From Bacillus tuaregi (GTDB lineage Bacteria; Bacillota; Bacilli; Bacillales; Cytobacillaceae), in assembly GCF_900104575.1 (NCBI RefSeq), contig NZ_LT629731.1, forward strand, positions 1,657,051-1,721,050: DNA of 64,000 nucleotides, given 5' to 3'. The translations under genes were made by a program, and so were the position numbers. Shown piece after piece: positions 13,866 through 61,560 of this stretch. Below the pieces are notes generated by a model. That model was not told where the DNA came from. It made no database searches and worked only from the letters and a program-made list of their open reading frames with translations. Positions within the stretch are counted from its first letter, which is position 1. Each line of letters opens with the position of its first letter.

Positions 13866-14125
13866 AGAAAATAAAAAACTCGTCCCTATAAAAGGGACGA
13901 GTTATTCTCGCGATACCACCCTAATTCCGATGCTAAAAAGCAAACGGCACTTAGTCAACGTACAAACATACGTGTTCCATTGTAACGGCGGAAATCCCGT
14001 CAAAGCTTACTATTTTCAGCCTTGCACCTCGGAGATGATTTTCGGATTGGTACTGAACATCGACTTTCACCATTTGTCGACTCTCTGAAGAACAGTGCTC
14101 CCATCTTACTCTTTCTCGTCATCGA
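13866..14125 (-). promoter_or_regulatory. T-box leader controlling brnQ
   Basis: On the minus strand, the leader contains the Stem I AGAAAGAGTA element and the canonical T-box sequence TTAGGGTGGTATCGCG. An intrinsic terminator follows (AACTCGTCCC/GGGACGAGTT, 13877-13903, then T-rich). The T-box sequence can pair alternatively as an antiterminator. The probable specifier loop reads AAAATCATCTCC, most simply ATC (isoleucine); I did not fold it, so the codon is uncertain. The element regulates by binding uncharged tRNA. Confidence 0.9.
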
Positions 14126-14185
14126 TTTATTATTTAAAGATAATTTATCAGATGAAAATAGATAAGTCAATCAATTTTTAATTTT

Positions 14186-16474: not shown

Positions 16475-17511
16475 TGGTGGGTTTTAGAGATTATAACGGT
16501 GTTTGGGTATTTATTGAAGAAAAAGATGGCGTCATCTCCCAGGTTTCACTGGAACTCTTGGGGGCTGGACGAAAACTTGCTGATAAACGCGGTGTGGAGC
16601 TGGCTGGAGTCATAATCGGCGAAAATATCAAACAGCTGGCTAAAACTATCTTTGAATACGGTGCAGATACAGCCTATGTCTACGATCAGCCTATATTTAA
16701 ACACTATCGGACAGAATCCTATATGAAAGCGCTTCTTGAATGTACGAATAAATACAAACCGGAGATTATTCTCTTTGGTGCCACCTCAACAGGGAAGGAC
16801 TTAGCAAGTGCGGTGGCAACAGATTTGCCGACAGGGCTGACAGCTGATACAACAGAGCTTGATGTAGATGAAGAAACCGGTCTTTTGCTTGCCTCTAGGC
16901 CGGCCTTTGGCGGCAATATTATGGCGACTATCTTATGTAAAAAATATCGTCCACAAATGGCAACAGTCCGAGCTAAAGTGATGAAAGCACTGGAACCTCA
17001 GCCAGGCAGAAAAGGAACGATCATTGAAGAAGAGATACCATTACGGGAAGAGGAAATTCGGACAAGAGTCTTAGAGATTGTGGAAGCGACGATAAAGAAG
17101 GTACGAATTGATGAAGCAGATATTATTGTCGCTGGTGGTAAAGGCTTGGGGAGCAGTGAAGGTTTTCAGCTAGTTCATCACCTCGCAGAAGTACTGGGTG
17201 GGGCAGTGGGGGCAAGCCGGGATGTGGTCGAAGCTGGTTGGATTGAGCATCCTCATCAGGTTGGACAGACAGGAGTCACGGTCACCCCGAAAATATATAT
17301 TGCGATTGGAATTTCAGGAGCCATTCAACATATTGTCGGGATGAAGAATTCTGGTTTAATCATCGCAATTAATAAGGACAGCGAAGCACCTATTTTTAAT
17401 ACCTGTCATTATGGAATAGTTGGTGATGCCTTTGAAATTGTCCCTTTATTAATCGACCAGTTTAAAAATGCGTTAAGAAGGGAGGGGCTGACACATGTCA
17501 GAGAAGTTTGA
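16474..17511 (+). CDS. fixB: Electron transfer flavoprotein alpha subunit (FixB type)
   Basis: A 345-aa EtfA/FixB. It has an N-terminal alpha/beta domain and a C-terminal FAD domain; the family signature IYIAIGISGAIQHIVGM is near residue 270 and the NKD motif near 290. It pairs with FixA. It begins inside the fixA stop codon (ATG at 16474; GTG at 16477 is an alternative, with AAAGGAGGG upstream), and its end overlaps fixC by seventeen bases, indicating one transcript and coupled translation. Confidence 0.88.
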   Translation: MVGFRDYNGVWVFIEEKDGVISQVSLELLGAGRKLADKRGVELAGVIIGENIKQLAKTIFEYGADTAYVYDQPIFKHYRTESYMKALLECTNKYKPEIILFGATSTGKDLASAVATDLPTGLTADTTELDVDEETGLLLASRPAFGGNIMATILCKKYRPQMATVRAKVMKALEPQPGRKGTIIEEEIPLREEEIRTRVLEIVEATIKKVRIDEADIIVAGGKGLGSSEGFQLVHHLAEVLGGAVGASRDVVEAGWIEHPHQVGQTGVTVTPKIYIAIGISGAIQHIVGMKNSGLIIAINKDSEAPIFNTCHYGIVGDAFEIVPLLIDQFKNALRREGLTHVREV

Positions 17512-24274: not shown

Positions 24275-26011
24275 ATGAAAAGAGGAATTACATGGCAGCT
24301 TGGTATGATGATAGTTTGTGTACTATTTGTTTCAATGTTGATTACATCTGTATCTAACTACTGGGTAACGTATAAACATACATATAGAGCTGCGGGAATT
24401 GAAGCAGTTGGATGCGCTAACATCACAACAGGTTTAATTTCACCAGGTGATATTGAGAAAGCAATCAATGGGGATATAATAACACGTGAAGCATTAGAAA
24501 AGACGATTAGCTGGACAGTCGAACATAAACAAATTTTTGAAAATCAATATATCATTCAAATGGATGGGACAATCCTAGCAGCTGATGAGAGTATGAAAAA
24601 ACAAGGATTTAAGGCTGGGGATACTTTCTACATTGATGAACAACTAATCGAGACGCTAAAGGAAACAAAGCATCCACAATACTCTGATATCTATGAGTTT
24701 GGCGGTATGAAACGTTTAACCGGGTACGCTCCGATTTTTAAGGACCATGATCCTAGTAAAGAAATCATTGCATTAAATGCTATTGACTTCGATGCAAAAA
24801 TCGTAACTGAAAGAACCTGGGAGTCTGTGAAGGGAACTGTTATCTTGGGTCTGTTGCCAATGATTATCGCATGTTTGATCACTATCTGGATGATTAGAAG
24901 AAGAACAAAACCAATCACTAGTTTAATAGAGTATGCAAAATGCATTGCAGACGGTGATCTATCTGTTGAAAATGTTAATACGAAAAATAATGATGAAATT
25001 GGCGAATTGGGTAATGCCCTTAATTTTATGGCAAAAAATTTACGTGAACTGATTCAGCAGGTTAGCTCCAGTGCCGAACGTGTAGCTACTTCCTCCGTGG
25101 ACTTACATCAAATAGCAAAGCAAACGAATCATGCAACAGAGCAGATTTCCATATCGATGAGTGAAATCGCATACAGTGTTGACAAACAAGTTCAAAGTGT
25201 AGAAGAAACTGCTCAAACCGTAAGTGAAATTTCAGCTGGAGTCAATGTAATTTCCGATAATGCCCATAGTGTTACCATGACTGCAAAGAAGACCTCTGAA
25301 AAAGCGGAAGAAGGCGGTCTAGCCATCAAAACAGCCGTAAATCAAATGAATTCCATTCAGGAAACAGTTAATGGGCTAGCCGAAGCGGTAAAAGGATTAG
25401 GAGTCCGATCAGAGGAAATTGGTCAAATTGTTGAGGTAATTACCGGGATTGCAGCTCAAACTAATTTACTAGCCTTAAATGCAGCAATTGAAGCAGCCAG
25501 GGCAGGGGAGCATGGACGAGGTTTTGCCGTTGTAGCAGGTGAAGTTCGAAAATTAGCTGAACAATCAGCTATGTCAGCAAAACAAATTTCAATCTTAATC
25601 TCGACGATTCAGGATGATACGAGTAAAGCAGTTCTTTCGATGGAAGTGGTTTCGAAAGAAGTAGCATCAGGAATTGAAGTGGTTCATACGGCAGGCGGCT
25701 CCTTTGAAATTATTGAGGAATCGATTTTTGAGGTAACAGAGCAGATTCAAGCCGTATCTGCAGCAGTTCATCAAATGGTAGCAGGTACGGAGCAAATGGT
25801 TCAATCTATGCGATTTATTACAGATGCTGCGGAAAATGCTGCATCGGGCACACAGCAAGTGTCGGCAGCAACCGATGAACAGCTGGCCTCAATGGAAGAA
25901 ATCTCAGCCTCTGCAAGTATCTTATCTAATATGGCAGAGGAACTCCAGGTAATTATCAAGAAATTTAACTTCATTCAGCAGAAGTCCTCCACTTCTACAA
26001 GTGGGGGATGA
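24275..26011 (+). CDS. Methyl-accepting chemotaxis protein with element-encoded C terminus
   Basis: A 578-aa chemoreceptor. TM1 is near residues 8-30, followed by an extracellular sensor domain of about 155 residues. TM2 is near 186-207, then HAMP and the signalling domain with the hairpin tip [27 protein letters not shown] precedes the start. The last fifteen codons (F564-G578) and the stop lie inside a dispersed repeat that begins at 25964, so the native end has been replaced. Relatives usually end soon after a KKF-like segment, which is still present, so function is probably kept. Confidence 0.88.
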
Positions 26012-26155
26012 ATGCAAATCGTACTTCGATTCAGTGGAGGTTCAAACCCCGGCTGAATGAAGTTAAGCCTCCGGCGGATGTCACGGATTTTTTAAAGGTA
26101 GTTTACCCGAGCGAGCTCAGGTAATCCGGACGCAAATTCGACGGGCGAATTTGAT
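25964..26155 (+). repeat. Dispersed structured repeat, copy 1 (IS200/IS605-like non-autonomous element)
   Basis: A 192-base element closely similar to 34733-34923, with partial copies at 51541-51653 and 61490-61560. It starts at TTTAAC and ends in GAATTTGAT. It holds a 14-base inverted repeat (TTAACTTCATTCAG/CTGAATGAAGTTAA) enclosing a stem TCCTCCACTT/AAGTGGGGGA. A right-end hairpin CAAATTCG/CGAATTTG closes it. No target duplication is visible. The hairpins and fixed 5' TTTAA resemble transposase-less IS200/IS605 (TnpB/omega-RNA-type) ends; that affiliation is inference. Confidence 0.75.
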
Positions 26156-30156: not shown

Positions 30157-30259
30157 TATCTTATCAAGAGAGGTGTAGGGACTGGCCTGATGAAGCCTCA
30201 GCAACCGCAGATATATTTTGAATGGTGCTAAATCCAGCAAAGCTTGGCTTTGAAAGATA
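30157..30259 (+). promoter_or_regulatory. SAM-I (S-box) riboswitch aptamer
   Basis: The conserved S-box blocks occur in order: CTTATCAAGAGAGGTG, AGGGACTGGCCTGATGAAGC, CAGCAACC, GGTGCTAAATCC and GAAAGATA. P1 forms between TATCTT (30157-30162) and AAGATA (30254-30259). The downstream hairpin at 30278-30319 is the likely expression platform. S-boxes normally switch genes off when S-adenosylmethionine is abundant. The controlled gene is a small protein of unknown function rather than a methionine gene. Confidence 0.93.
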
Positions 30260-30277
30260 GGGGGAGATTTCTTTTTT

Positions 30278-34732: not shown

Positions 34733-34923
34733 TTTAACTTCATTCAGCAGAAGTCCTCCACTTCTACAAGTGGGGGATGAATGCAAATAGTACTTCGATT
34801 CAGTTGGGGTTCAAACCCCGACTGAATGAAGTTAAGCCTCCGGCGGATGTCGCGGATTTTTTTAAGGTAGTTTATCGAGCGAGCTCAGGTAATCCGGACG
34901 CAAATTCGACGGGCGAATTTGAT
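34733..34923 (+). repeat. Dispersed structured repeat, copy 2 (full length)
   Basis: A 191-base copy with the same TTTAAC start and GAATTTGAT end as copy 1. Its second internal hairpin pairs fully (ATTCAGTTGGGG/CCCCGACTGAAT, one wobble), whereas copy 1 carries two mismatches there. It sits between the terminator of the 112-aa gene and trpB, ending about 40 bases before the trpB start, so it forms most of the trpB upstream region. Confidence 0.75.
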
Positions 34924-51289: not shown

Positions 51290-51543
51290 TTGTAATAAAT
51301 TCAAAATTATTATATAATAACCTTGTCATAATAAATACGTGCATAACAAATGGGATATTTTTTTAAAAACAAGGGGTCGTGGTTCTATATGCTTGGGGAA
51401 GCGTAAACCACAAAGAATGGATGATCAACAACTGTACGGAATAAAACGTAGCATAATGAATGAAGAAGAACTGTTTTTTGCAGGGAGATTGAATGATTCA
51501 AAAGCAAAAAGGATGACTTTTAAAAGTCATCCTTTTTGCTTTT
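51290..51543 (+). ncRNA. Candidate small RNA transcription unit
   Basis: TTGTAA (51290-51295) and TATAAT (51313-51318) form a promoter with a 17-base spacer. A nested hairpin follows, GTGGTT/AACCAC enclosing GCTTGGGGAAGC (near 51379-51411). A 20-base perfect terminator (51500-51543) ends the unit, giving a transcript of about 215 bases. Open frames within it have no ribosome site and run through the terminator. The call rests on promoter, structure and terminator only. Confidence 0.4.
51500..51543. terminator. Perfect 20-bp hairpin terminator
   Basis: AAAAGCAAAAAGGATGACTT and its complement surround TTAA. The last three bases are shared with the start of repeat copy 3. Confidence 0.85.
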
Positions 51544-51653
51544 AACTTCATTCAGCAGAAGTCCTCCACTTCTACAAGTGGGGGATGAATGCAAATGGTA
51601 CTTCGATTCAGTGGGTTACAAACCCGGACACAAATTCGAAGGGCGAATTTGAT
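51541..51653 (+). repeat. Dispersed structured repeat, copy 3 (internal deletion)
   Basis: A 113-base copy with intact TTTAAC and GAATTTGAT ends but lacking about 79 internal bases. The junction lies at a CCGG present at both deletion endpoints in the full-length copies, suggesting deletion by short homology. It ends one base before the aspA stop codon complement (51655), so it lies directly against the 3' end of aspA. Confidence 0.7.
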
Positions 51654-61449: not shown

Positions 61450-61497
61450 ATCGGGCTGTTCAGCACTCCATAGTGGTGACTGGCTGCCCGATTTTTT
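61450..61497 (+). terminator. Terminator of the ktr gene, fused to repeat copy 4
   Basis: ATCGGGC/GCCCGAT form the outer stem with a nested hairpin inside. The T run that follows is also the start of repeat copy 4. Confidence 0.7.
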
Positions 61498-61560
61498 AAA
61501 GGTAGTTTATCGAGCAACCTCGATAAAAATCCGGACGCAAATTCGACGGCCGAATTTGAT
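61490..61560 (+). repeat. Dispersed structured repeat, copy 4 (right-end fragment)
   Basis: About 71 bases matching only the right part of the full copies, from GATTTTTTAAAGGTAGTTTA to the GAATTTGAT end, with a divergent middle. The left half is missing. The right-end hairpin CAAATTCG/CGAATTTG is kept, with one compensating change in the loop. Confidence 0.65.

Follow-up and report, generated by a model that had tools for sequence, protein, structure and literature searches.

Results

A dispersed repeat and its copies

The stretch of DNA analysed here (the window, 64 kb) corresponds to positions 1657051-1721050 of contig C16 of the genome under study (G000, 4.86 Mb). It carries a T-box leader at 13890-14131 on the minus strand, a SAM riboswitch at 30158-30263 on the plus strand and, also on the plus strand, complete or partial copies of a gene-less repeat. 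Copy 1 (25964-26155) spans 192 bases, and copy 2 (34733-34923), likewise full, is 96% identical to it. A first-pass annotation of the window had described a dispersed structured repeat of about 190 bases at 25964, with four copies sharing sharp ends. The repeat itself is confirmed by the 96% copy and by a genome-wide search, as that annotation had proposed; two of the four copies, those at 25964 and 34733, are complete. Copy 3 (51541-51653) keeps both ends and has an internal deletion (repeat positions 1-86 are joined to 160-192), and copy 4 (61490-61560) is a right-end fragment (positions 123-192) that lacks the left end. Nor is the left side always TTTAAC, as had been stated: apart from the copy at 61490, some of the 29 copies examined elsewhere in G000 begin with ATTAAC, GTTAAC, CTTAAC, ATCAAC, TTCAAC, TTTTAC or TTTACC (locus L014, the same place as L011, was left out of these counts).

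The exact right end, GCGAATTTGAT, occurs 194 times in G000 (119 forward and 75 reverse) and the reversed control pattern 0 times, which rules out a chance repeat. BLAST of the genome with the repeat gave at least 42 matches (40 of 280 first-look candidates were scored). Thus, the repeat occupies well over a hundred places in G000. A 584-kb sample, made up of the window and 26 stretches of 20 kb, many of them picked for known copies, held 64 copies: 44 full, 11 truncated at the 5′ end, 7 truncated at the 3′ end and 2 cut at both ends. Each of the five genomes examined from the genus, among them G000, carries the repeat.

Insertion sites before and after insertion

The region G000:C16:1612000-1801050 was compared with the syntenic region of a congener (G001:C19:1-179000), and seven insertion sites, those of copies 1, 2 and 3 among them, were inspected. 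Four were clear, one was plausible and two were uninformative. With the insertion point given as a slash, the clear sites read GTTATTTTAA/AAATATT in G000 and GTTATTTTAC/AAATATT in G001, ATTTTAA/TAGTCTA and ATATAA/TAGTCTA, and TTTAA/TCTAATC and ATTAA/TCTCTATC; the site of copy 1, which is empty in G001, reads AAATTTAA in both genomes. Empty sites were recorded for copies 2 and 3 as well. A further case was found in G002, where a tnpB gene is split by a 253-nt copy of the repeat (L108 200-555; G002:C18, about 17161-17413). Joining the two flanks gives a sequence that aligns over its whole length with an intact tnpB also present in G002, in which the site is CTTAA/CGTC, and the tnpB homologues of G003 and G000 have TTTAA/CGTC at that place.

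The empty sites in the congener and the paralogous tnpB therefore show that TTTAA is a pre-existing target, that it is not duplicated, and that the element proper runs from C to TTTGAT (187 nt). Copy 1 accordingly consists of the target at 25964-25968 and the element at 25969-26155. Both the unrelated flanks and the lack of a target duplication, proposed in the first-pass annotation, are borne out by this comparison, which that annotation had also suggested: the sites are clean and insertion is 3′ of TTTAA. A non-mobile regulatory RNA was considered as well, and is an insufficient reading given the empty sites.

Structure of the element and its optional modules

Folding of 25964-26155 gave z-scores of -4.8 as RNA and -6.2 as DNA, in agreement with the several stable hairpins noted before. 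Members of the family share a common plan: a stem (P1), the sequence GCCTCCGGCGGATG, a central stem-loop, and a right-end hairpin ending in TTGAT. In copy 1 (plus strand throughout), the P1 5′ strand TTAACTTCATTCAGC (25965-25979) comprises TTAA of the target and the start of the element, and the P1 3′ strand GCTGAATGAAGTTAA (26052-26066), complementary to the target side, is the internal guide. Within P1 lies a hairpin, TCCTCCACTT..AAGTGGGGGA (25984-26008), which resembles an IS605 left end and is optional, being absent in other members (e.g., L224 and L370). The conserved core GCCTCCGGCGGATG (26067-26080), invariant in 36 aligned sequences, is followed by the central stem-loop GYC(W)C[AG]GAT..ATC[CT]GGRC (26080-26131), with compensatory changes, and by the covarying right-end hairpin CAAATTCG..CGAATTTG with the terminus AT (26133-26155). 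The hairpin of IS605 form previously pointed out, CCTCCACTT..AAGTGGGGG, is indeed present, and a similar left-end hairpin is found in tnpA/tnpB elements of G000.

In the 36 aligned sequences, 31 of which come from other records, 94.8% of the helix cells pair and 12 of 28 pairs change on both sides (54 cells); none of 500 shuffles reaches this, with a final helix pairing that was partly fitted, having been prompted by Y-R covariation. It replaced a first helix assignment, which showed weak covariation. By this alignment, the structure is conserved.

An Rfam search of the whole element gave no match to a known family. Three optional modules were recognized in the family: a 35-nt hairpin, the IS605-left-end-like hairpin, and the Bacillaceae-1 RNA (RF01690). 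The last was detected in 7/7 loci picked for showing an insert, at 61.6-84.2 bits (cut-off 35), and was absent from the window's copies in the Rfam search. One report lists Bacillaceae-1 among structured RNAs (PMC2864571), and another proposes that its reverse complement binds CsrA (PMC4333381). Some copies in G002 and G001 carry a 62-nt insert (L112 361-426, L107 360-426 and L108 329-395) with a weak reverse-strand match to Bacillaceae-1, below the Rfam cut-off.

If the top strand acted as RNA, G.U pairs should be far better tolerated than A.C pairs. In the strong helices, G.U accounted for 12 and A.C for 19 of 960 cells; in P1 the counts were 24 and 104, with 36 of the A.C in one column. Rare substitutions in 34 copies of G000 (C>T 27, G>A 38) were not strongly strand-asymmetric. 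These counts lean towards pairing at the DNA level, and are not decisive. An A.C excess seen in a strand test of the right-end hairpin was mostly traced to one position and was discarded.

Pairing between the target and the internal guide

P1 begins within the host target, so that the target itself forms part of the stem: TTTAAC pairs with GTTAAA, and TTTATC with GATAAA. Cores near locus ends were left out of the counts that follow. Of 210 cores, 186 had a P1 in which 11 or more of the 16 pairs form. When the outer cells of P1, where target and guide face each other, were counted in 174 elements, 938 of 1044 were paired; shuffling gave 655 on average and 713 at most, in a control that mixes two registers and so inflates the contrast. 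Even within single genomes (G210, G303 and G433), copies with differing P1 stems mostly remain paired through the target. As judged from these pair counts, target and internal guide covary.

The guide of IS608 is a tetranucleotide that base-pairs with both the cleavage site and the target (PMC5934647). The geometry differs here: target and guide occupy opposite strands of one long stem, whereas the IS608 guide lies 5′ of a hairpin.

Single diverged copies were also observed between the genes for ribosomal proteins L1 and L10, at the place where the L10 leader is expected, in G083 (L148) and G067 (L150). Their P1 stems are different, and each is paired with its own target.

Orientation relative to replication

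For the orientation test, copies of less than 80% length were omitted. In the 584-kb sample of G000, 41 of the 44 near-full copies were co-directional with the replication fork (p = 1.6e-9 for an expectation of one half; p = 1.2e-4 when compared with the ORFs, of which 318/460 are co-directional). Two of the 44 lay inside an ORF, and of the copies situated between two anti-fork genes, 6 out of 7 still followed the fork. The GC skew of G000 was positive where copies were mostly forward and negative where they were mostly backward. A genome of another family, G210, gave a similar picture: the direction of 12 of 13 copies in the sampled windows agrees with the skew sign there. The G003 genome has two domains whose sampled windows are opposite in skew, and 15 of the 16 copies listed fit them. 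Since orientation follows the fork, the top strand of the repeat is mostly the lagging-strand template. IS608 and ISDra2 prefer the lagging-strand template (PMC5371812).

Distribution of the family

A degenerate pattern of the core was found in at least 118 stretches across the contigs scanned. Among the 118 matches listed, 114 were on contigs named as Bacillales genera (Lysinibacillus, Sporosarcina, Psychrobacillus, Siminovitchia, Fredinandcohnia and others). The remaining four (L224, L246, L270 and L276) were on contigs labelled Arthrobacter beigongshangensis, a record that, carrying a Bacillales repeat, is probably mislabelled or mixed. Of 299 genomes of the class, at least 14, belonging to three families, were matched by a covariance model, and another model search matched at least 8 of 121 genomes; both used stricter filters and scored a part of the candidates, so that the counts are lower bounds. 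On the strength of these pattern and model matches, the structured core recurs in other Bacillales. Three queries from the family gave no match when searched against plasmids and phages. A group II intron match was noted in L196 (1510-1606), about 3 kb from a family copy.

Transposase genes in the genomes that carry the repeat

G000 encodes one IS605-type tnpA (132 aa), located beside a tnpB (370 aa) at a TTTAA site, and four RAYT-like proteins; such a tnpA is also found in G001 and G004. The left-end hairpin of this resident element, AGAAG..GATGAAT, is similar to that of the repeat and lies at a similar distance. The resident tnpB elements whose ends were read terminate in GTTCAC or GTTCAA, not in TTTGAT. 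Among the sampled Y1 loci of G000 and its relatives, no transposase gene examined carries the ends of the repeat. The first-pass annotation had suggested searching for a tnpA or tnpB with matching ends, and would have counted the lack of one in any relative against an IS200/IS605-like element; none was found in the relatives sampled. Several other elements of G000 (L051-L054 and others) have a MerR-like helix-turn-helix protein beside a large TnpB, and are presumably of the IS607 type.

Proximity to Y1 and tnpB genes was counted by BLAST, since the stricter core pattern overlooked degenerate copies in the vicinity of tnpB. Among 55 Y1/RAYT locus records, 2 had part of the repeat within about 1.5 kb. 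Both were in G000 (a right-end fragment at L031 and a full copy upstream of the RAYT gene at L034), a number close to that expected from the density of the repeat there, and there was none in the 50 records from outside G000. The 11 tnpB loci of G000 (70.5 kb) had five repeat pieces near four loci, where about 8 would be predicted from the sampled density, and the 6 tnpB loci of other genomes had none. In none of these 17 loci did a piece adjoin the tnpB 3′ end, the nearest in G000 being 402 bp past the stop.

TnpB genes are present in all five genomes of the genus. Outside the window's family, 2 of the 13 copy-bearing genomes (G303 and G335) lack a match to PF01797 (Y1), and 6 of the 13, these two included, lack a match to PF07282 (TnpB); the 16 comparison genomes were not matched for relatedness, and no statistics were applied to the presence of either domain. 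A RAYT-like frame, a class assigned by length and score, occurs in 8 of the 13 and is the sole Y1 match in G399 and G433. The ten copies fetched from G399, which has only the RAYT-like protein and no TnpB match, average 95% core identity. In G303, which has at least 14 copies, mean core identity is 87.5%, and in G335, with at least 8, it is 77.4%; these copies are older and may be relics in hosts that have lost the mover. Beside the at least 118 named loci there was no recurring transposase-like gene; the recurrent clusters were the reading frame within the element itself and widespread families, e.g., ABC-type ATPases (7 loci) and dehydrogenases. Since none of the transposase genes examined has matching ends and some hosts lack a Y1 match, we do not file the repeat as a member of IS200/IS605.

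Discussion

We lean, with modest assurance, towards the repeat being a non-autonomous mobile element that moves as single-stranded DNA by a replication-coupled mechanism of the IS200/IS605 kind, its target being chosen through the internal guide. An enzyme encoded elsewhere would act on the strand serving as lagging-strand template and cleave it at the left boundary, following TTTAA, and at the right boundary, following TTTGAT. The freed strand would then be joined 3′ of a new TTTAA, selected by base pairing with the guide, i.e., the P1 3′ strand just before GCCTCCGGCGGATG. Several points speak against this proposal: none of the transposase genes examined has matching ends, G303 and G335 have no PF01797 match and several further hosts outside the window's family have RAYT-like ones only, the guide lies in a long stem together with the cleavage site, unlike that of IS608, the right end is unlike those of the resident IS605 elements, and the mixed registers of the shuffled control inflate the target-guide contrast. 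The suggestion in the first-pass annotation of a transposase-less, IS200/IS605-like mobile DNA thus stands as to behaviour (target kept 5′, no duplication, empty sites, fork orientation and hairpin ends), but not as to membership, given that no tnpA with matching ends was found.

Other movers were weighed against the same data. That a folded transcript pairs with TTTAA through its guide, as a group II intron does through its EBS, and that a trans-acting reverse transcriptase then makes a DNA copy of it at replication forks, seems unlikely to us. The element is highly structured, its target pairing is IBS/EBS-like, a known RNA family serves as a module, and 5′-truncated copies (11/64) are somewhat commoner than 3′-truncated ones (7/64); group II introns, too, are known to be biased relative to the fork. 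However, no Rfam group I or II intron matched the elements searched, and G.U was not favoured over A.C (12 versus 19 of 960; in P1, 24 versus 104). An ordinary ends-only derivative (PATE) of a resident TTTAA-targeting IS605 element, moved in trans by the TnpA of that element, would account for the common target and the similar left-end hairpin, and such a tnpA is at hand in G000, G001 and G004. We nevertheless consider this origin improbable, as the right ends differ, other members of the family lack the left-end hairpin, G399 and G433 have a RAYT-like Y1 only, and G303 and G335 have none at all.

Movement of REP-like sequences by RAYT (TnpA-REP) appears very improbable. A RAYT-like frame does occur in 8/13 hosts outside the window's family, as the sole Y1 in G399 and G433, and the RAYT gene at L034 has a copy upstream; yet only 2/55 locus records have a piece nearby (0/50 outside G000), and the repeat is much longer than REP and has a fixed target. 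We give hardly any credence to the omega-RNA-like transcript acting in trans with a TnpB that had been put forward in the first-pass annotation, here taken to direct TnpB to vacant target sites. In its favour, motifs of the TTTAA kind are known for TnpB, the sequence next to the 3′ end varies from copy to copy, and TnpB is encoded in each of the five genomes from the genus. Against it, PF07282 is unmatched in 6/13 hosts outside the window's family, none of the 17 tnpB loci has a repeat piece directly at the tnpB 3′ end, and G.U is not preferred.

Compared with known systems, the replication-coupled element that we propose behaves like IS200/IS605 (IS608, ISDra2 and PATEs), which leave no duplication when they integrate on the 3′ side of a tetra- or pentanucleotide (PMC7290912). 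Both have a short T-rich target, hairpin ends, lagging-strand-template orientation, and a target paired with an internal guide, though in a different geometry in the repeat. No tnpA or tnpB with matching ends was found for the repeat, which, unlike them, has optional RNA-like modules and a right end, TTTGAT, that is partly in a stem. Group A IStrons are also inserted after a T-rich pentanucleotide with mobility of the IS200/IS605 type (PMC4227781), but they have TCAG as their terminus and harbour a group I intron, whereas the repeat has no intron. Going by published descriptions only, bcr1-bcr3 of Bacillus cereus are alike in being high-copy, structured, chromosomal, MITE-like sequences of 100-400 bp with the site motif TTTAT (PMC6542083, PMC3446304); bcr1 has plasmid copies (PMC6542083), whereas our family queries matched no plasmid or phage. 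REP/RAYT sequences are likewise high-copy, palindromic and mostly intergenic, but the repeat is 125-250 nt long, has a defined target and is not linked to RAYT genes. The Bacillaceae-1 RNA (RF01690) is an optional part of some family members, absent from the window copies, rather than a counterpart of the whole element. The repeat family was not found described in the open-access literature, and its breadth, the covariation of target and guide, the replication bias and the Bacillaceae-1 module are new points.

A bolder possibility, which we hold tentatively and regard as doubtful, is that these are gene-less elements of several Bacillales families with self-programmed targets, whose guides diverge copy by copy, which are moved at forks by neither a Y1 nor a TnpB enzyme, and which carry Bacillaceae-1 as a cargo module. 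Because some hosts that carry copies match neither Y1 nor TnpB, the family raises the question of what enzyme mobilizes a gene-less element that has reached well over a hundred copies in G000. The repeat gives a genomic context to the orphan Rfam family Bacillaceae-1. If the guide does set the target, each genome would hold dozens of natural guide-target pairs, and DNA-guided target choice would become testable outside IS608.
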